This document shows, piece after piece, positions 417 through 12,133 of a DNA stretch of 64,000 bases. Under the pieces are notes generated by a model. That model was not told where the DNA came from. It did no database searches and worked only from the letters and a program-made list of their open reading frames with translations. Origin of the DNA: Fulvimarina endophytica (GTDB lineage: Bacteria > Pseudomonadota > Alphaproteobacteria > Rhizobiales > Rhizobiaceae); the NCBI RefSeq assembly GCF_003403015.1, contig NZ_QURL01000006.1:1-64000 (forward strand). The letters run 5' to 3'. Within the stretch, counting starts at the first letter, position 1, and each line of letters begins with the position of its first letter. Made by a program: the position numbers and the translations under genes.

Positions 417-1196
417 TCAGGCCTCACGCGCCCCAAACGACGCACCAGACGCCGCCTTAGGCGACGCACCGGGCCCGTCAGTCCCAACAGAGCCAGCCTC
501 GTGACGAACAACGGCCCCGCCGCGCTCAACGCCGCCATCCCCGCCCGCCAAAAAGCCCCCGCGGCTAAGAATGAAATCTCCAACCGAAGCCAAACCAAAA
601 CCACGCTTCAAATCCGTGAAAACAGTCGGACGAAAACCTCGAGCAAGACCAGAATCAATGCGGAGGCGCTCGAGGTCCACATCCACATGGACCGCAAGAT
701 CGGTCTTGTTCACGATCAGAAGGTCCGAGCGGCTGATCGCAGGGCCCCCCTTGCGCGGAATGTCCTCCCCCTGGCAGCAGCTGATCACGTAAAGCGTCAG
801 ATCCGCCAGATCGGGCGAAAACGTCGCCGCCAGATTGTCCCCGCCGCTTTCGATGAACACGATGTCCAGATCCGGAATGCGCGAGGTCAGGCGGTCGATC
901 GCACGGAGATTGATCGACGCATCCTCCCGGATCGCCGTGTGAGGGCAGCCGCCCGTCTCCACGCCCTCGATCCGATCCGACGACAAGGCCTGCATCCGAA
1001 CCAGAGCATCCGCATCCTCGCGTGTGTAGATGTCGTTGGTGACGACGGCGATCGACAGCCGGTCCCGAAACAGTTCGCAAAGCCGCGCCGTCAGAGTCGT
1101 CTTTCCGACACCCACAGGCCCGCCGATGCCGACCCGCAGGGGACCGTTGGGTGAGCGGGAAAATTGACTTGCGGGGGCAGTCGGGGCTGGATTCAT
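417..1196 (-). CDS. ureG: Urease accessory GTPase UreG, with C-terminal extension
   Basis: UreG is the cytoplasmic SIMIBI-class GTPase that delivers nickel to apo-urease with UreD and UreF. The P-loop GPVGVGKT lies near residues 26-33, the nickel-binding CPH motif at 84-86, the ESGGDNL switch near 116-122 and NKTD at 163-166. The ATG at 1196 forms an ATGA overlap with the ureF stop, which decides the start. UreG proteins usually end about where this one reaches residue 212. Here about 45 further Gly/Ala/Ser-rich residues follow, with no recognisable domain. This could be stop-codon loss or a real extension. Identification is secure; only the C-terminus is in doubt. Confidence 0.95.
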
Positions 1197-1870
1197 GACA
1201 GGAAGAGCCTTCCGGCAAGGGTTTCGTGGCGCAGGGCGTCGATTTCGGCGGCAAAGCACGCGGTTCCGAGATCGTCGGGCGTCGCGGTCGCTGCCCGTTC
1301 GGCCGTCTCGAGGATGGCGGGCTCGAGCCGGCTCATCGCGTCCGCCGCTCCCGTCTGCCCGATGAGGGACAGGCGGATCGCGGCCTGGAGCTGTGCGAGA
1401 ACCGCGCCGTGGAGGAAGACGGCGAGCGTATCGAGACGCTCGAAATCATGGAGAGCCGCCATCCGTCCGATGGCGACGGGCAGGGGCAGGGCGTCGTCGG
1501 CGAGGGCGATGGGTGCACCCTTCGTTCCGCCCCTTACGCTCTTGGCCCAAGGCGAGACGGCCGCCATGAAGGACCGCCCCTGATCGAAGGTTTCCGCGAG
1601 GCGCTCGGCAGAGCCGGCAAAGGCTCGCACCATTGCCGCGAGATCGAGGAGAGCCGTCTCGTCGGCGGCGCTGCGATGGGCCGTGGCGAGAAAGACCGCA
1701 TCGTTCCAAAGGAAGCCCGAGGCGAGAAGGCGGGCGATGCGGGCGGTCAGGTCGCAGGCACCTGCGAGCCGGTCCTCTGCGATCGCCGTTTCGAGACCGG
1801 CCGAATAGGCGTAGCCACCGATGGGGAAGACAGGCGAGAGCCAGGACAGAAGTGCGAGGGGCGGCGCCAT
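1193..1870 (-). CDS. ureF: Urease accessory protein UreF
   Basis: UreF acts in the UreD-UreF-UreG complex as regulator of the UreG GTPase during nickel insertion. The N-terminus carries the family signature [20 protein letters not shown] (residues 6-25). At 225 residues it has normal UreF length. The ATG at 1870 lies one base after the ureE stop, and the stop overlaps the ureG start (ATGA), so ureE, ureF and ureG are translationally coupled. An upstream in-frame start exists but would read through the His-rich 3' part of ureE in another frame and is rejected. Confidence 0.93.
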
Positions 1871-1871
1871 C

Positions 1872-2474
1872 TCAGTCCGTCGACCGTTCGGCGCCCGTTC
1901 GCGGCATTGCGACGTCGTGGGAATGCCCTCCGCCCGCCACCGGATCATGCTCGTGTGCGTGAGCATGTCCGTGGCCGTGGCGATGCTCATGGGGGTGCTC
2001 GTGTTCGTGCCCGTGCCCGTGATGAACATGATGTCGGGAGGAAGTGCCGGCCATCTCGTCATAGGCCCCGCCTTCGGGGTCGAAGGGCTCGTCGACGAAA
2101 TCCAGACCCGCGCCGAGCCCCGTCAGCATGGCTTCGATCACATGATCGCGGCGGATCAGAATGCGGTCGTCCTCGATCTGCGCGGCGAGGTGCCGGTTGC
2201 CGATCTGCCAGGCGAGAGCGTTGAGATGGCGCCGGTCGCGACCCGACACGGCCACGAGGTCTTCGGGGACCGCGCGCACCTCGATCACCCGCCCGTCCTC
2301 CAGGACAAGGCCTTCGCCATGACGCAGGAGCCGGGCGCGGGGAAGGTCCAGGAGAATGTCGATCCCGCCGTCGGAGGTCATGACCATCCGCCTGCGATGG
2401 CGCGCGGTCTCGTCGAGAGTGATCGTGTCGGCAGGGGCTTCGGCCCGGGCACGGACCTCGCGGACGCGGATCAT
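1872..2474 (-). CDS. ureE: Urease nickel metallochaperone UreE
   Basis: UreE binds nickel and hands it to UreG for urease maturation. The N-terminal domain (about residues 1-75) and the metal-binding domain (about 76-145) are followed by a long His-rich tail (about 147-185) made of HGHGHEHEH-type runs, typical of nickel-storing UreE proteins. The start codon at 2474 overlaps the stop of the brnA antitoxin (ATGA), so ureE translation is probably coupled to the antitoxin. Apart from that neighbour the gene is a normal 200-residue UreE. Confidence 0.95.
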   Translation of the reverse strand: MIRVREVRARAEAPADTITLDETARHRRRMVMTSDGGIDILLDLPRARLLRHGEGLVLEDGRVIEVRAVPEDLVAVSGRDRRHLNALAWQIGNRHLAAQIEDDRILIRRDHVIEAMLTGLGAGLDFVDEPFDPEGGAYDEMAGTSSRHHVHHGHGHEHEHPHEHRHGHGHAHAHEHDPVAGGGHSHDVAMPRTGAERSTD

Positions 2475-2779
2475 CGCGTCTCTCGCTTGACGGCCCGCAC
2501 ATAGGCGCCGAGCACGTCGTTCATGCGGGTCTGGTAGCCACGCCCCTGCGCCCTGAACCAGTCGACGATCTCGGCGTCGAGGCGGATGGTGAGCTGCTTC
2601 TTGGTCGGGACGACCTCGCCCGGCGCAACGAGCCGCATCTCGGCGAGCTGGGCGTCGGTCAGCTCGGGAATGTCGGAGAAATCGATGTCCTCGTCGCGCA
2701 AAGCATCGAAGCGTTCCCGTTCCTCCTTCGTGGGCTCAGGAGGGTTCGAACCATCAAGCCGGAAATGTACGGTTGCCAT
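2471..2779 (-). CDS. brnA: BrnA-family antitoxin
   Basis: The 102-residue protein matches the BrnA (type II antitoxin) pattern: an N-terminal toxin-binding half and a C-terminal ribbon-helix-helix DNA-binding half starting near KKQLTIRLDAEIVDWFR and ending near VLGAYVRAVKRETR. BrnA proteins neutralise BrnT and repress their own operon. The start is inside the last codons of brnT (26-base overlap), the usual BrnTA arrangement; an upstream start would read through brnT in another frame. The stop codon overlaps the ureE start codon, which places the module physically and translationally inside the urease operon. Confidence 0.88.
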   Translation of the reverse strand: MATVHFRLDGSNPPEPTKEERERFDALRDEDIDFSDIPELTDAQLAEMRLVAPGEVVPTKKQLTIRLDAEIVDWFRAQGRGYQTRMNDVLGAYVRAVKRETR

Positions 2780-3035
2780 AGATCTTCCTTTCGCGATCAC
2801 TTGCCTTTCGGGCCGATACGATACGGATGGCGTCGGGAACCTCCGTGAAAACGACGACGTAAAGACGTGTTCCGACCATTCCGATCGCGATTTCCCTGAC
2901 CTCGTCATACACGAAGCGGTCGTCTTCGAAGATCAGTCTGAACGGATCGGAAAAGACAGCTGCCGCCGTCTCGAAGCGCACGGCATGCTTCCGGACATTG
3001 AGTTCAGCTTTCCGGTCGTCCCATTCGAAATCCAT
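2754..3035 (-). CDS. brnT: BrnT-family toxin (RelE-fold ribonuclease)
   Basis: The 93-residue protein has the BrnT signature: WDDRKAELNVRKHAVRFETA at the N-terminus, the central RLIFEDDRF strand, and the C-terminal IRIVSARKASDRERKIY segment. Family members are RelE-like ribonucleases that inhibit translation. The gene begins 34 bases after ureC, behind a palindromic operator, and overlaps brnA. No frameshift is visible and the conserved residues appear intact, so the toxin is probably functional. Nothing in the sequence links its activity directly to urease. Confidence 0.88.
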   Translation of the reverse strand: MDFEWDDRKAELNVRKHAVRFETAAAVFSDPFRLIFEDDRFVYDEVREIAIGMVGTRLYVVVFTEVPDAIRIVSARKASDRERKIYGNRTFPA

Positions 3036-3059
3036 ATGTAACTACATTCGTCGTTACAT
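3036..3059 (-). promoter_or_regulatory. Candidate brnTA operator
   Basis: ATGTAAC at 3036-3042 and GTTACAT at 3053-3059 form a perfect 7-bp inverted repeat with a 10-base spacer. It directly abuts the brnT start, in an AT-rich gap between ureC and brnT. Ribbon-helix-helix antitoxins such as BrnA bind palindromes of this kind upstream of their operon. The assignment is inference from position and symmetry. Confidence 0.6.
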
Positions 3060-3069
3060 TCAATTCGCC

Positions 3070-4782
<1,713 letters not shown>

Positions 4783-4880: not shown

Positions 4881-5186
4881 CTACGAAGCCGCGCCGAACT
4901 CGCCGCGAAATCCGGTGATGCGGCCATTGCCGGCGAACGGGATCAGGCTCACCTCGCGCTCCTGTCCGGGCTCGAAGCGGACGGCCGAGCCCGCCGCGAT
5001 GTCGAGGCGCCTGCCTCTCGCGGCCTCCCGGTCGAAGGAGAGCCCGGGATTGGCCTCGGCGAAATGGTAATGGCTGCCCACCTGCACGGGACGGTCGCCG
5101 GTATTGACGACCACCAGCGTCAGGGCCTCCCGGCCCTCGTTGAGCACGATCTCGCCTTCGCGCACGAAGAACTCTCCGGGAACCAT
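4881..5186 (-). CDS. ureB: Urease subunit beta
   Basis: Small structural subunit of urease, 101 residues, with the typical start [19 protein letters not shown] and the [10 protein letters not shown] segment near residues 38-47. It assembles with UreA and UreC into the apo-urease trimer in the cytoplasm. It is separated from ureA by 13 bases, consistent with one transcript. No anomalies were seen. Confidence 0.95.
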
Positions 5187-5199
5187 GGCGCGGTCTCCT

Positions 5200-5502
5200 C
5201 TAGCGGATGGGTTGGTGGACGGTGACGAGCTTCGTGCCGTCGGGGAAGGTGGCTTCCACCTGCACGTCGTGGATCATCTCCGCGACGCCTTCCATCACCT
5301 GGCTGCGGTCGAGAACCTTCGCGCCCGCCTGCATCAGTTCGGCGACGGGACGGCCGTCGCGGGCGCCTTCCACCACGAAATCGGTGATCAGGGCCACCGC
5401 TTCGGGATGGTTCAGCTTCACGCCGCGCTCCAGCCGGCGGCGGGCGACGACGGCCGCCATGGAGATCAGCAGCTTGTCCTTTTCGCGTGGACTGAGGTTC
5501 AA
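5200..5502 (-). CDS. ureA: Urease subunit gamma (TTG start)
   Basis: Gamma structural subunit of urease, 100 residues, starting (M)[11 protein letters not shown] and containing the conserved [15 protein letters not shown] stretch (about residues 21-35) and the [14 protein letters not shown] segment. The start that gives the conserved N-terminus is TTG at 5502. Use of TTG may lower its translation relative to neighbours. It lies 36 bases downstream of ureD and 13 bases upstream of ureB. Confidence 0.94.
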
Positions 5503-5538: not shown

Positions 5539-6417
5539 TCAGATCGACCAGCAACGGGGCAGAGCATAGCCGCCGCGCAGGAGGAGGAGAAGTGGCAGGA
5601 GCCTTCGGCGAAGCGCGAGCGCGCCGGTTGCCATCAGCCGCACGAGGAGCTTGCCGTCGAAGAAGCTCGCGCCGCCGCTCTCGCCGAGGATGGCGCGCGC
5701 CGGCTCGAGGCACGCCTCGGCCTCGGGCGAAAGAAGAAGGACGGTGGCATGGGCGCGCCGGCCGCCGGCCACGGCGGCACCCTGAAGCATGTCGTCGATC
5801 GCGCCCTCGATGCGCAGCGCCTCGATATGCACCGGTCGTCCAGCCCGGCGGATCGTCCAGCGATCGGCGAGAGCGCCGGTCTGCACGATCTCGCCCATGC
5901 CGCTGCGACCGAAGACCAGGGGCTCGCACAGGAGAAGGCTGGCATCCTCGGCGAGATCGCAGGTGATGGAGCGCGAGAATCGGGCGCCGTCGAAGAGGAT
6001 CGTCTCCTGGGCGAGCCAGTCGAGGCGGGCGCCTCGACCGACCGTCAGGTGAACCTTCGTCTCGGCCCGCCCGTCCACGGCCCGGTAGAGCCGTTCGGCG
6101 GTCTGGGTCGCCAGCGTCAGATGGGTTCCGTCGCCGGCCTCGCAGCGCCAGGCGAGCCGGTCGCCGCCCGTCATTCCGCCCGAGGTGTTGAGGAGGACGG
6201 CTTCGAGGCGTCCGGCCGAATGGCTGTTCGGGAGGCGGATGCGCGCCGATCCCTCCTGATAGAGGTCGAAGAGCCGGCTTTCTCCGCCGGCGCCGCGCCG
6301 CGCGCTGACGAGCCCGGTGCCGCTGCTGCGCTGCATGCGCGGCGACGAACGGCCGACCGTTCCCTCCGGGGCCGCTGCATCCATCCGTTCGGCAAGTCTC
6401 GTCATCGGGTCCGGCAT
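5539..6417 (-). CDS. ureD: Urease accessory protein UreD
   Basis: UreD (UreH) binds apo-urease and recruits UreF and UreG for nickel insertion. The 292-residue product has the family landmarks: LLNTSGGMTGGDRL near residues 75-88, TQTAERLYRA, a central LDWLAQETILFDGARFSR segment, and GRSGMGE. It heads the ureDABC part of the cluster and lies 180 bases downstream of nikE, so transcription may continue from the nik genes. The N-terminal 25 residues are poorly conserved, so a start slightly downstream is possible. Confidence 0.93.
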   Translation of the reverse strand: MPDPMTRLAERMDAAAPEGTVGRSSPRMQRSSGTGLVSARRGAGGESRLFDLYQEGSARIRLPNSHSAGRLEAVLLNTSGGMTGGDRLAWRCEAGDGTHLTLATQTAERLYRAVDGRAETKVHLTVGRGARLDWLAQETILFDGARFSRSITCDLAEDASLLLCEPLVFGRSGMGEIVQTGALADRWTIRRAGRPVHIEALRIEGAIDDMLQGAAVAGGRRAHATVLLLSPEAEACLEPARAILGESGGASFFDGKLLVRLMATGALALRRRLLPLLLLLRGGYALPRCWSI

Positions 6418-6597
6418 TTCCTCGCATCCGCCCCGCCGCGACTGGCGACGACGGTCTGGGCGTCTTGCCCGGATCGAGCCGAGTGACGCAAGGATCGTGC
6501 CATGACGAGGAGGCCGCCGTCCGGCCGCCCATCCGCTCGCCTTGCCCCGCTCCGCCGAAGAGGGGGATGCGACTTCTTCCGTCAGGCTGACCGAAAA

Positions 6598-7410
6598 TTA
6601 GCCAGCCGCGCGTGCAGGGCGGCGGGTGGCGCCGGGCATGGCGGGGAGCACCGCCGCGCCAAGGGCCCGTCCGGCGGGACTTGCGAGGGCGAGGGGGCGG
6701 GACACCGCGGCCTCCTCGCAGACGCGGCCCTCGTCCATGACGAGAACGCGCGATGCGAAGCGTTCGACGAGGCGCAGATCGTGGGTAACGAACAGATAGG
6801 CGAGGCCCGTCTCCCGGCGCAGATGCTCGAAGAGATCGAGCATCTGGATCTGGAGATGCAGGTCGAGATTGGAGACCGCTTCGTCGAGGACGATCAGCTT
6901 CGGCTGAGGCGCGAGCGCGCGGGCGATGCAGACGCGCTGGAGCTGGCCGCCGCTCATCTGGCCGGGAAGCTTGTCCGCATCGCGCGGCTCGAGCCCGACC
7001 CGCCGCAGAAGATCGGCGATCGCCGGCTCGCGCTCGCTCTTCGAAAGCTTGAGGAGGTGGCGCAGGGGCTCGGCGAGGATCGCGCGAACCGTGGAGCGCG
7101 GATCGACGGCGCCGAGGGAATCCTGGAAGACCATCTGCACCGATCGCCGGAAGGCGAGGCGTTCGGCCTTCGACAATTCATCGAGCGGACGGCCCTCGAA
7201 GCGGACGCATCCGGCATCGGGGCGCTCCAGACCCACGAGAAGGCGGGCGAGGGTGCTCTTGCCGCAGCCGCTGCGGCCGAGAAGCCCGACGGTTTCGCCG
7301 GCCTCGATCGACACCGAGACCGCGTCAAGGACGCGGGTCTTCTGCCGCTCGCCCCAGCCCATGCCGGTCTCGTAGGCGCGCGAGACCGCGTCGGCGGCGA
7401 GAAGGCTCAT
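6598..7410 (-). CDS. nikE: Nickel ABC transporter ATPase NikE
   Basis: Second ATPase of a peptide/nickel-type ABC importer. The Walker A GRSGCGKST lies near residues 44-52, the Q-loop is in MVFQDSLGAVDPR, the signature is MSGGQLQRVCIARAL, and Walker B is LIVLDEAVSNLD, followed by the H-loop FVTHD. It energises uptake through NikBC together with NikD. The ATG at 7410 overlaps the nikD stop (ATGA). Assignment to nickel rather than peptide follows from the clear NikA ortholog in the operon and the urease genes downstream. Confidence 0.92.
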   Translation of the reverse strand: MSLLAADAVSRAYETGMGWGERQKTRVLDAVSVSIEAGETVGLLGRSGCGKSTLARLLVGLERPDAGCVRFEGRPLDELSKAERLAFRRSVQMVFQDSLGAVDPRSTVRAILAEPLRHLLKLSKSEREPAIADLLRRVGLEPRDADKLPGQMSGGQLQRVCIARALAPQPKLIVLDEAVSNLDLHLQIQMLDLFEHLRRETGLAYLFVTHDLRLVERFASRVLVMDEGRVCEEAAVSRPLALASPAGRALGAAVLPAMPGATRRPARAAG

Positions 7411-8192
7411 GGGGCGACGTCCGGCGCGTAGAGGGAGAGATGGGCATCGACCAGTCTGCGCGTCACCGGATGGGCGGGCTCGTGGAACATCCGGTCGATC
7501 CCCCCGGTCTCGACGATACGTCCCGCCTCCATCACCGCCACCCGGTCGGCCAGCCTTGCGACGACGCCCATGTCGTGGGTGACGAGGAGGATGCCGAGCC
7601 CGCGCTCCTTTCTCAGCCTGTCGAGGCAGTCGAGGATCTCGCTCTGGACGATGAGATCGAGATCGGTCGTCGGCTCGTCGGCGAAGAGAAAGGGCGCCTC
7701 GCTCATCAGGGCGAGGGCGATCATCATGCGCTGGAGCATGCCGCCGCTCATCTCGAAGGGATGGAGGGCGAGGATCCGGTCGGGTTCGCCGAGACCCGCA
7801 TCCGCCATGGCGCTTGCGATGATCGCGTCCCATCGCGGCTTCGGGAAGCCGAGAGCCTTCAGGGTCTCCTCGGCGTGGCGGCGCATGGTGAGCACGGGAT
7901 TGAAGGCGCTGCGCGGCGCCTGGAGGATGGTCGCGACCTTGCGGCCGCGCACGGTCTTCGGCTGGCAGGGCTCGCCATCGACGAGGAGCGTTCCGGTCTC
8001 GCGCCATGTTCCGGGCGGCAGGACGTCGAGCGCGCCGGCGCAGGTCATCGACTTGCCCGAGCCGCTGGCGCCGACGAGCGCCAGAACCTCGCCGGACGAA
8101 AGCGAAAGGTCGATCCCGGCGACGAGAGGTGCGCGCGCGCCGCCTCTCGCGCGCACCGTCAGGTTCGCGATGTCGAGCCTTCGGGCGGTCAA
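7407..8192 (-). CDS. nikD: Nickel ABC transporter ATPase NikD (TTG start)
   Basis: First ATPase of the nickel importer: Walker A GASGSGKS near residues 36-43, signature MSGGMLQRMMIALAL, Walker B FLFADEPTTDLD, H-loop LVTHDMG. The best start is TTG at 8192, which forms a TTGA overlap with the nikC stop, matching the coupled overlaps elsewhere in the operon. No ATG exists near the domain start. Its stop overlaps the nikE start. Confidence 0.9.
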   Translation of the reverse strand: MTARRLDIANLTVRARGGARAPLVAGIDLSLSSGEVLALVGASGSGKSMTCAGALDVLPPGTWRETGTLLVDGEPCQPKTVRGRKVATILQAPRSAFNPVLTMRRHAEETLKALGFPKPRWDAIIASAMADAGLGEPDRILALHPFEMSGGMLQRMMIALALMSEAPFLFADEPTTDLDLIVQSEILDCLDRLRKERGLGILLVTHDMGVVARLADRVAVMEAGRIVETGGIDRMFHEPAHPVTRRLVDAHLSLYAPDVAP

Positions 8193-9061
8193 TGGGCATG
8201 CTCCATGCGCAGATGCGGGTCGAGGCGGTCGCGGACGGCGTCGCCGAGAAGGTTGAAGGCCATCACCGTGACGAAGAGGGCGAGCCCCGGCCAGATCATC
8301 AGAAAGGGTTCGGTCCAGATGAACTGGCGCGCATCGTTGAGCATCACGCCCCATTCGGCCGTCGGCGGCACGACGCCGAGGCCGAGGAAGGAGAGGCCGG
8401 AGACGTGCAGCATGATGTGGCCGATATCGAGACTGGCGAGAACCACCAGTTGGGAAAGGGTCGCGGGCAGGAGATGGACGGCGAAGATCCGCAGGCGCCC
8501 GACGCCGGCGAGCCTCGAGGCGAGGATGAAGTCGCGATGCTTCAGGGACAGGACGATGCCGCGCACGATGCGCGCATACCAGGCCCAGTGGGACAGGGCG
8601 ATGGCGATGACGACGTTGACGAGCCCGGTGCCGAGCATGGCGACGAGGAAGAGGGAGAGGACGAGGGTCGGGAAGGTGAGGAAGACGTCGGTGAAGCGCA
8701 TCAGCACCTGGTCCGTGCGGCCCCCGGCAACGCCTGCGATGCCGCCGATCGTGATGCCGAGGACGAGGATCAGCGAAAGTGCGATCGCGACTGAGCCGAG
8801 CGAGACGCCGGCCCCGGCCACCAGCCGGGCGAGGACGTCGCGGCCGAGATGGTCCGTGCCGAGGAGATGGGCGGCGCTCGGGCTCTGAAGGCGCGCCGAA
8901 AGGTCGACGGCGTTCGGCTCGTAGGGAACGAGGAAGGGCCCGAAGATGGCGACCAGCACGATGGCGAGGACGAGGCCGAGTGCGATGCGCCCGGTCAGGC
9001 CGAAACGCGACCCTCGCGCGCTCGCGGGGGCATCGCCCGTATGGATTGCGAGATCGCTCAC
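8189..9061 (-). CDS. nikC: Nickel ABC transporter permease NikC (GTG start)
   Basis: Inner-membrane permease of the DppC/OppC/NikC type, about 290 residues. It has the N-terminal oppC-type segment ending in [11 protein letters not shown], the [18 protein letters not shown] motif and the EAA-like loop region [19 protein letters not shown]. The start is GTG at 9061, in a GTGA overlap with the nikB stop; the upstream ATG would read through nikB. It forms the translocation pore with NikB. Confidence 0.92.
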
Positions 9062-10002
9062 CGCGTTCCCTCCCCGGAGAGCCGGATGCGCGGATCGGCA
9101 TAGGCATAGGCGATGTCGACCACGAGATTGCAGAGGACGAAGATCGCGACCATCAGGAGCGTGAAGCACTGGACGACCGGATAGTCCCGGTTGAAGACCG
9201 CCGAGACGGCGTAGCGCCCGACCCCCGGCCAGCCGAAGATGCTTTCGATGATGAGCGTGCCGCCGATGAGTTCGCCCACATGCATGCCGGTGGCGGTGAC
9301 GATGGGAAGGAGCGCATTGCGCAGGATGTGCGAGCGCTCGACCTTGCGATCGGACAGGCCCCTAAGGCGCGCATAGGTGACGTGGCGCTGGCCGGCGACC
9401 TCCAGCATGGAGGCGCGCAAGAGCCGCGCATTGATGGCGAGCGACATCAGCGAGATCGCGATGGCCGGCATGACGATGTGCGAGAGGCCGCCTTTGCCCA
9501 TGGCAGGCAGCCAGCCGAGCTCGACGGAGAACAGGAAGATGAGGAGGAAGCCGAGCCAGAAATTCGGCATGGAGACGCCGAGAAAGGCGACGACGCGCAC
9601 CGCGTTGTCGGGCAGGCCGTCGCGGTGGCGGGCCGCCCAGATGCCGAGGGGCACCGAGATCGCGAGGGTGAGGAGAAGCGCGAAGCCGGCGAGCTGGAGC
9701 GTTGCCGGCAGATAGTGGAGAAGATCGGGCAGAACCGGCCGCTGGAGCGCGTAGGAGACGCCGAAATCGAGATGGAGGGCGCTCCACAGCCAGTCGAGAT
9801 ATTGCACGAGGATCGGCCGGTCGAGGCCGAGAAGTTCGCGCGCGGCCTCGACCGCTTGCGGTGTCGGCGGCAGGCGCGACAGGCGCAGATAGTCGAGCGC
9901 GGGATCGCTGGGGCCGAGCCGCAGCACCAGGAAGATCACGAGGGAAGCGCCGAGCAGCATCGGCACCATCAGCGCCAGCCGCCTGAGGATGAAGAGGGCC
10001 AC
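9058..10002 (-). CDS. nikB: Nickel ABC transporter permease NikB (GTG start)
   Basis: Inner-membrane permease, 314 residues, beginning (M)[20 protein letters not shown], typical of DppB/NikB proteins. The permease coupling region [20 protein letters not shown] and the [20 protein letters not shown] segment are present. The start is GTG at 10002, three bases after the nikA stop. It pairs with NikC in the nickel importer. Confidence 0.92.
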
Positions 10003-10005
10003 GGC

Positions 10006-11574
10006 TCAGAGATCCCCGGGCTCGATCGCCTCGAAGGGGACCTCGCTGGAGAGTGCGCCGAAGGGCACCTTGCCGAGGCCGGGCCGGGCGACGAGCATCG
10101 CATTGGTGTAGACGAGCGGCAGATAGACCGCCGCGTCGTGGAGGCGCGTGATGATCTCCCTGTAGAGAGCCCTGCGCTCCTCCTCGTTGCGGGTGACGAG
10201 AACCTTGCCGATCTTGCCGTCGATCTCGGCCTTGTCGTCGAGCCCCAGCTGGGCCTGATAATCGGCATGGGCTGGAACGCGCATGGCCGAGAGGAAGGCG
10301 TGCGGATCGTAGAGCTTGCCCCAGGTGGTGTTGAAGATCATGCCGAAGCGCCCGTCGCGCTGGCGCGCATAGACGCTGCTTTCCTCCTCGCCGACGAGCT
10401 CGACGGCGATGCCGATGCGGGCGAGATCGGCCTGGACGATCTCGGCCATGGACTTCAGGACGGCATCGTTGCCGGTGAAGCAGAGTTCGATTCTCAGGGG
10501 CTCGCCGTCGCGCGAGCGGGTGCCCCCGTCCTGCCGCGTCCAGCCGGCCTCGTCCAGCAGCCGTTCGGCAAGAACGGGGTCGAAGGCATAGGGTTTCAGG
10601 CCGATATCGGCATAGGGAACGCCCGGCTCGAACAGGGTATCGGCACGCTCATGGGTGCCGGACAGGACCGCCGAGATCATCGTGTCCTTGTCGACCGCAT
10701 GATTGATGGCCTTGCGCACGGCGATGTCGCGGGTCGGGCCGCGATTGGTGTTGAGGGCGAAGGTGCGTGTCTCATAGGGCGGGGAAAGGGCGGTGACGTA
10801 GCCGTCCATGGCCTCGAAGCGCTTGAAGCTGTCGGGCGAGATCGGGCCGTCCGCGCCGTAGATGAGGTCGATCTCGCCGGTCTGAAGAGCGATCGCCCGG
10901 GAATTGGGATCGGGGATCACCTTGACGTCGACCTCGTCGAGCGCCGGCGCCTTGCCCCAATAGGTCTCGTTGCGCCTGAAGAGATCGTGTTCGCCGAGAC
11001 GTGTTTCGGCAAGGACGAAGGGCCCGGTTCCGATCGGCGCCGCGATGCCGTCCATCGTGCCGCCGTCGACGAACTGGGAGGGGGCGACGAAGCGGAAGGG
11101 GCGCGGCAGCGCGAGTTCCTCAAGGACGGGATAATAGGAGTCCTTCAGGGTGAGGCGCACCCTATGGTCGTCCAGGGCCTCCGCTTTCTCGATCTGGTTG
11201 GCGAGCTCGAGCCAGGCATGGCGTTCGCGATTGGCGAGGATCGCCTCGAAATTGGCGACGACCGCCTCGGCATCGAAGGTCTCGCCATTGGAGAAGGTCA
11301 CGCCCTGGCGAAGGTGGAAGGTATAGGCGCGGCCGTCCCCGGACACCTCCCAGCTTTCGGCGAGCCAGGGCTCGAGCGTGCCGTCCTTGCCGTATCTGAC
11401 CAGCGGCTCGTACACCATGGATTGTGCGAACATCTGGTTCGGCGTGTAGAGATGCGGGTTGAGCGGGCCCACATTGACGGGCCAGGAGAAGTTCAGGCGT
11501 TCGAGGGCCGATGTCACGGTCGCCGAGCCGGAAAGAAGGCCGATCGCGAGGGCAAGGGACAAAGCGAGGCGCAT
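10006..11574 (-). CDS. nikA: Nickel-binding periplasmic protein NikA
   Basis: Periplasmic solute-binding protein (family 5, 522 residues) that captures nickel, probably as a metallophore or histidine complex, for NikBCDE. A cleavable signal peptide covers about residues 1-23. Long stretches match E. coli NikA closely, including WPVNVGPLNPHLYTPNQMFA, RHAWLELANQI, ALPRPFRF and EEESSVYARQRDGRFGMIF, which separates it from dipeptide-binding relatives. It is the first gene of the leftward operon, 21 bases downstream of the NikR operator. Confidence 0.96.
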   Translation of the reverse strand: MRLALSLALAIGLLSGSATVTSALERLNFSWPVNVGPLNPHLYTPNQMFAQSMVYEPLVRYGKDGTLEPWLAESWEVSGDGRAYTFHLRQGVTFSNGETFDAEAVVANFEAILANRERHAWLELANQIEKAEALDDHRVRLTLKDSYYPVLEELALPRPFRFVAPSQFVDGGTMDGIAAPIGTGPFVLAETRLGEHDLFRRNETYWGKAPALDEVDVKVIPDPNSRAIALQTGEIDLIYGADGPISPDSFKRFEAMDGYVTALSPPYETRTFALNTNRGPTRDIAVRKAINHAVDKDTMISAVLSGTHERADTLFEPGVPYADIGLKPYAFDPVLAERLLDEAGWTRQDGGTRSRDGEPLRIELCFTGNDAVLKSMAEIVQADLARIGIAVELVGEEESSVYARQRDGRFGMIFNTTWGKLYDPHAFLSAMRVPAHADYQAQLGLDDKAEIDGKIGKVLVTRNEEERRALYREIITRLHDAAVYLPLVYTNAMLVARPGLGKVPFGALSSEVPFEAIEPGDL

Positions 11575-11594: not shown

Positions 11595-11622
11595 GTATGA
11601 GCTTTGTCTCAATACATCATAC
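11595..11622. promoter_or_regulatory. NikR operator (GTATGA-N16-TCATAC)
   Basis: GTATGA at 11595-11600 and TCATAC at 11617-11622 are separated by exactly 16 bases. This is identical in both half-sites and spacing to the operator that E. coli NikR binds upstream of nikABCDE. It lies between the divergent nikA and nikR starts and closer to nikA, so nickel-loaded NikR should repress the nik operon and perhaps the co-directional urease genes. Confidence 0.92.
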
Positions 11623-11671: not shown

Positions 11672-12133
11672 ATGCAGCGGATCACGATCACCGTCGACGA
11701 CGACCTGATGGCCGATCTGGACCGGATGATCGAGACCGGCGGTTATCCAAACCGGTCCGAGGCGATCCGCGATCTCGCCCGGCTCGGACTGCGCGAGGCG
11801 GCCGCGCGGACCGGAGAAGTGCGCGACTGCGTCGGCGTGCTCAGCTATGTTTACGATCACGAGGCGCGCAATCTCTCCAGCCGCCTGACGACCACCCATC
11901 ATCACCACCGCGACATCTCCGTCGCCGCCCTCCACATCCATCTCGACGCCGACCAGTGCCTCGAGATCAGCGTCCTGAAGGGCAGGAGCGACGAGGTGCA
12001 GGACTTCGCCGACACCATCATCTCCCAGCGTGCCGTCTCCTATGGCGAGCTGAAGATCGTGCCGCAGGGCCCCCGGCACGATCGTGGACATGATCACGAT
12101 CACGATCACGACGGCGAATCCGGGCCGGCCTGA
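11672..12133 (+). CDS. nikR: Nickel-responsive repressor NikR, His/Asp-tailed
   Basis: Ribbon-helix-helix/ACT-type nickel repressor. The DNA-binding RHH domain occupies residues 1-45 and the metal domain about 50-132. High-affinity nickel ligands equivalent to E. coli His76, His87, His89 and Cys95 are seen as His77, His88, His90 and Cys96. The C-terminus continues about 20 residues beyond the usual end with an alternating His/Asp run ([12 protein letters not shown]), an unusual potential extra metal site. An AGGAG-type ribosome site precedes the ATG. The gene is divergent from nikA across a perfect NikR operator. Confidence 0.95.

Follow-up and report, generated by a model that had tools for sequence, protein, structure and literature searches.

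Does the clustering of nickel import genes with urease genes reflect shared regulation or mere shared location? The question is raised by a locus of the alphaproteobacterium Fulvimarina endophytica, found in a stretch of 64,000 bases at the beginning of contig NZ_QURL01000006.1 (assembly GCF_003403015.1), hereafter the window. A palindrome of the NikR operator type separates nikR from a nickel transporter operon, and urease genes continue on the strand of the latter (Table 1). We consider it likely that the operator serves the nik genes, that the urease genes are transcribed mainly from a sigma-54 promoter of their own under nitrogen control, and that the nik block was acquired.

Table 1. Genes and predicted sites of the nik and ure region, with their positions in the window.
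Feature	Position	Strand	Support
nikR, 153 aa, His/Asp-rich C-terminal tail	11672..12133	+	TIGR02793, 194.1 bits (cut-off 175.45); RHH_1 and NikR_C
NikR operator (predicted), GTATGAGCTTTGTCTCAATACATCATAC	11595..11622	.	motif search
nikA, nickel-binding protein	10006..11574	-	TIGR02294, 686.5 bits (cut-off 393)
nikB, permease	9058..10002	-	TIGR02789, 492 bits (cut-off 447)
nikC, permease, start provisional	8189..9061	-	NF007738, 449.1 bits (cut-off 335)
nikD, ATPase, start provisional	7407..8192	-	best family TIGR02770, 307 bits, below cut-off (318.7)
nikE, ATPase	6598..7410	-	TIGR02769, 364.3 bits (cut-off 332.55)
sigma-54 (-24/-12) promoter match, TGGCACGATCCTTGC	6488..6502	-	exact TGGCACG-N4-TTGC in the nikE-ureD gap
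ureD	5539..6417	-	PF01774, 166.8 bits
ureA (gamma)	5200..5502	-	
ureB (beta)	4881..5186	-	
ureC (alpha)	3070..4782	-	TIGR01792, 967.5 bits (cut-off 680)
brnT (3035-2754) and brnA (2779-2471), toxin-antitoxin pair	2471..3035	-	PF04365, PF14384
ureE, His-rich tail	1872..2474	-	PF02814, PF05194
ureF	1193..1864	-	PF01730
ureG	417..1196	-	TIGR00101, 259.8 bits (cut-off 204.2)

The pattern GTATGA-N16-TCATAC has a single zero-mismatch match in the window, at 11595-11622, and this is also the sole exact match in the whole genome (4,372,088 bases in 28 contigs, 99.1% complete), which encodes one NikR. The preliminary description had reported an exact operator of the E. coli type here, with enterobacterial half-sites and spacing and a divergent nikR, in an alphaproteobacterium, and all of this holds. 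Half-sites and 16-base spacing are identical to those of the E. coli sequence GTATGACGAATACTTAAAATCGTCATAC (L360), the 16 spacer bases being different, and agree with the E. coli operator as given in a review (PMC7055735); nikR and nikA lie on opposite strands, and the highest-ranked named relatives of the NikR protein belong to the Rhizobiaceae. The site directly precedes the transporter operon, within the 97-base spacer that separates the nikA ATG (11574, minus strand) from the nikR ATG (11672, plus strand). By a simple base-frequency estimate, a sequence as long as this genome should contain 0.043 exact matches, and such a spacer about 1e-6. By its sequence, it is a genuine NikR operator of a common kind, with binding predicted.

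Looser matches are at the level of chance. At three mismatches or fewer the window holds five, against a shuffle mean of 6.07, so that the four beyond the operator call for no explanation. With up to two mismatches, 12 places are found in the genome including the operator, and the other 11 were rejected as NikR sites because their number is close to the eight obtained with a reversed control pattern. A scan of both the nikA-nikR and nikE-ureD spacers returned no sigma-70 promoter match, whether at nikA, at nikR or in the gap before ureD; one weak hit to a terminator pattern, close to the start of nikR on the minus strand, was set aside.

Running from 11574 down to 6598, the five transporter genes stand in the order nikA to nikE, each best-matching its own Nik family, and curated models place them with nikABCDE of the E. 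coli type. NikC, above the cut-off of one model, scores 351.4 bits against TIGR02790, just below the cut-off of 358.45. In seven aligned NikR proteins including that of E. coli, residues R3, T5 and T7 are invariant, as are H77, H88, H90 and C96. We take the first three columns to be the base-contacting Arg3, Thr5 and Thr7 of E. coli NikR, and the other four presumably correspond to its nickel-binding His, His, His and Cys. The His/Asp-rich tail of the Fulvimarina protein (12077-12133, plus strand) is absent from the four full-length relatives compared (L096, L097, L098, L101); the alignment rows of E. coli and L016 end at the match and hence fall outside this comparison.

Taken together, the exact site, the divergent nikR with its conserved columns and the association of site and regulator across the order described below make NikR control of nikABCDE well supported. 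NikR probably controls its own gene too, since nikR diverges from the same spacer. With an operator 20 bases from the nikA start codon and 49 from that of nikR, nickel-loaded NikR should bind when nickel is plentiful and block nikABCDE, and probably nikR as well.

The preliminary description had implied that an exact E. coli-type operator is a rarity in an alphaproteobacterium, which a survey of the order contradicts. An even draw of 397 genomes gave a NikR match in 116 and the exact site in 68. The site was present in 58 of the 116 genomes with a NikR match and in 10 of the 281 without (Fisher p about 1e-26, kinship among genomes ignored); the reversed control pattern appeared in six genomes, two of the 116 and four of the 281. 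The site lies within 1 kb of nikR in 38 of the 58 genomes having both; nine of the 58 have no listed site position, among which three have the site near nikR and six have none in the nikR stretch. Exact sites just 5' of nikR were found in Rhizobium sp. RU33A, Agrobacterium albertimagni, Devosia sp. YR412, Labrenzia sp. THAF187b and others and, outside the class, just before nikR in four halomonads (L020, L022, L024, L025). Since half of the sampled genomes with a NikR match carry an exact site, the E. coli-type operator is, at the sequence level, ordinary in this order, and what looked striking turns out to be routine. Control of nikA by NikR is listed for Brucella abortus in a review (PMC7055735), and a different NikR consensus has been predicted for deltaproteobacteria (PMC545781). 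One genome of the draw (G241, 94% complete) has no NikR match, although an exact operator immediately precedes the nikA of its nikABCDE genes (L201).

On the urease side, nikE ends at 6598 and ureD starts at 6417, and after this 180-base gap the minus strand continues with ureD, ureA, ureB, ureC, the brnT/brnA pair, ureE, ureF and ureG. Gap and strand are as first described; from the strand, together with the operator and the divergent nikR, it had been proposed that nickel controls both uptake and urease maturation. The uptake half of that proposal is well supported, through the site and the divergent nikR, but the urease half is not: no NikR-like site with up to four mismatches was found before ureD (6380-6640), an exact sigma-54 match lies there instead, 71 bases from the ureD start, and none of the seven nikB surroundings examined in other genomes contains a urease gene. 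NikR control of urease is thus unsupported by the sequence, and the sigma-54 match is a better lead.

This match gains its value from its position and not from its frequency, since exact TGGCACG-N4-TTGC occurs four times in the genome and the reversed control pattern three times. A second match lies 61 bases upstream of a gene for a TAXI-type binding protein, which adjoins a sigma-54 activator gene, so that the genome does encode an activator of this class; of the other two, one is before a cyanase gene and one sits where an ABC ATPase gene begins, the start codon of this gene being provisional. Upstream of the ureD site no consensus NtrC box rises above chance, and the scan is uninformative because seven other sigma-54 sites used for comparison also show none. 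The urtA gene of F. endophytica, located elsewhere in the genome near a formamidase gene, has no sigma-54 match with up to one mismatch. Sigma-54 control of urease genes has been described, mainly in alpha- and betaproteobacteria, by a computational regulon study of 2025 (PMC12316311).

Same-family relatives give this lead further weight. UreD was matched in 33 of 36 of them; G036, in which UreD is split over two contigs, was excluded from the scan, and the stretches L338, L348 and L356 end early at contig ends. An earlier and narrower scan of 30 regions upstream of ureD gave an exact match in one and, with up to two mismatches, matches in six, no excess over permuted patterns (mean 2.9, maximum 11). 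This weak result is perhaps explained by nikD/nikE-like genes, probably urtD and urtE, that stand before ureD in many relatives. A second scan covered the regions before ureD and, where found, before urtA in 32 relatives. Exact matches appeared in four of the 32, at urtA in G002, G017 and G034 and at ureD in G023, and matches with up to one mismatch in six. Among 500 letter-permuted patterns the means were 0.004 and 0.19 and the maxima 1 and 4, respectively, and none equalled either observed count. The exact match was absent, however, from the scanned regions of 28 of the 32, which limits this support even though the consensus is strict and real sigma-54 promoters vary.

The urease cluster itself shows several further features. 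The brnT/brnA pair is lodged between ureC and ureE, and a promoter of this pair could drive ureEFG. Immediately before brnT, 10 bases past the ureC stop, stands a perfect inverted repeat, ATGTAAC-N10-GTTACAT (3036-3059). UreE has a long His-rich tail (1914-2036, minus strand). UreG, of 259 aa, extends about 50 aa beyond the family-model match at its C-terminus, close to the contig end, and the final part of the gene (417-698, minus strand) has a GC3 of 54% against 78% in the preceding part. Since the left end of the window is the contig end, the gene content past ureG is out of view.

The nik block has a different distribution. Two genus-mates possess UreD and have no NikR match, and their NikB matches reach at most 40% among the matches listed. 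The 397 genomes of the order include 11 others with a close NikB relative (E <= 1e-110, 70-83% identical), and 385 genomes drawn from the class gave no further one, at most five first-look candidates being scored per genome. For seven of the 11 the surroundings of nikB were examined, and none holds a urease gene there; one of the seven, G356, does have a urease gene some 9 kb away from nikR, but on a different contig. The block thus appears patchy, and its position beside ureD seems peculiar to the Fulvimarina genome among the loci examined. Acquisition is the simplest reading of this pattern. Base composition speaks neither for nor against it, because ureC, the BCCT gene and cheA have a GC3 similar to that of the nik genes (83-88%).

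These observations are consistent with a locus in which two neighbouring systems would each keep their own control. The urease genes would be transcribed mainly from the sigma-54 promoter before ureD. An NtrC-type nitrogen activator would most likely turn this promoter on when nitrogen is short, and nickel would reach urease as a supply, without a shared switch. Urease would then probably be nitrogen-controlled and simply nickel-supplied, the nik block having probably arrived by acquisition next to a urease cluster that was already there.

Since no terminator match was found between nikE and ureD, read-through from nik into ure is possible, and the urease genes might receive two inputs, one from nik transcripts at low nickel and one from their own sigma-54 promoter at low nitrogen. 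We regard such a combination as unlikely. If true, it would mean that an acquired nickel-import block has added a nickel-sensing input to a nitrogen-controlled urease cluster.

It is quite improbable that a single transcription unit repressed by NikR spans nikABCDE and the urease genes, so that low nickel would raise both uptake and urease maturation. The common strand, the 180-base gap and the missing terminator match would suit such a unit, and nickel-transport and urease genes are reported to be co-transcribed in Brucella ure2, with another transporter (PMC2868824). However, the gap holds the exact sigma-54 match, which has counterparts in relatives, and urease genes are absent around nikB in all seven other genomes in which the surroundings of a close NikB homologue were examined.

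More doubtful still is an activating role, in which NikR would favour the expression of urease, either directly or by holding nickel within range. This role is stated for H. pylori, and proposed for Paracoccus yeei by authors who report that a nikR insertion abolished urease in that species (PMC11578231). The URE type 1 locus of P. yeei, where nikR and a nickel-type ABC operon diverge and urease genes lie beyond the operon, and a Haematobacter locus with nikR directly 5' of ureAB-ureC and one good half-site between, would fit the same idea. The loss of urease in P. yeei counts against the plain view of separate control, since it would not be expected if NikR simply repressed nik; on the other hand, the P. 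yeei mutant contains an inserted cassette, and no NikR-like site with up to four mismatches was found around the ureD-ureE spacer of P. yeei, nor before ureD in the window. That the palindrome is a chance match is almost certainly wrong: exact sites do occur in the 10 genomes without a NikR match mentioned above, but hardly any would be expected in a spacer of 97 bases and the site is strongly linked with NikR across the order.

We thus favour urease transcription from its own sigma-54 promoter next to a NikR-controlled nik operon. The sigma-54 match in the gap makes the question of shared regulation decidable by one experiment, and the answer has a bearing on why urease is lost when nikR is mutated in P. 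yeei.

Nickel and urease genes meet elsewhere as well. In L021, L223, L225, L228 and L235, urease genes and nikR are about 10 kb apart or less, separated by a TonB-dependent receptor gene or by other genes. In L021 (7569-10393) and L223 (2274-10283) nikR adjoins the receptor gene with urease genes nearby, and L021 has an exact operator between the two. In L202 (G372), a stretch without NikR, an exact site is found about 1.8 kb past ureF-ureG. The clustering thus recurs with varied parts. Among 100 stretches, picked mostly by score and thus no random sample, 71 had a NikR match and four of these a urease gene (L223, L225, L228, L235). The Haematobacter locus belongs to a plasmid of H. massiliensis (L102, 12447-12640), with an exact half-site, CATCATAC, between nikR and ureAB-ureC and recombinase genes just beyond.

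Compared with the E. coli nikABCDE/NikR system, the Fulvimarina locus has the same half-sites, the same 16-base spacing and the same transporter type downstream of the operator. In the enteric Klebsiella indica (L030), nikR comes after nikE in the same orientation, whereas the Fulvimarina nikR is divergent and shares the spacer, which would suggest direct autoregulation, unlike the enteric layout. The same divergent arrangement is found on plasmid pAtS4e of Allorhizobium ampelinum and on a plasmid of Rhizobium sp. T1470. Their proteins are 57-79% (NikA to NikE) and 60-66% (NikR) identical to those of Fulvimarina, and their operators match with one mismatch. Both copies have no urease genes in the stretches examined, and the T1470 copy has a hydrogenase gene nearby.

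In the P. yeei URE type 1 locus, nikR likewise diverges from the nickel-type ABC operon and ureDABC lies beyond on the nik strand. Its operator also has one mismatch, but the transporter is only 26-38% identical to Fulvimarina Nik, and ureE, ureG and ureF stand on the opposite strand between nik and ureD. Brucella ure2 (ureABCEFGDT-nikKMLQO) brings nickel uptake and urease genes into one operon, with an ECF transporter downstream of ure and, by its authors' account, no NikR-binding sites found (PMC2868824). In the genus-mate G002, the genome of which has no NikR match, a transporter gene set also stands upstream of ureD, in this case of the urea type, as identified through urtA. There, an exact sigma-54 match lies 58 bases before urtA, and ureD-ureA follows about 6 kb past it on the same strand.
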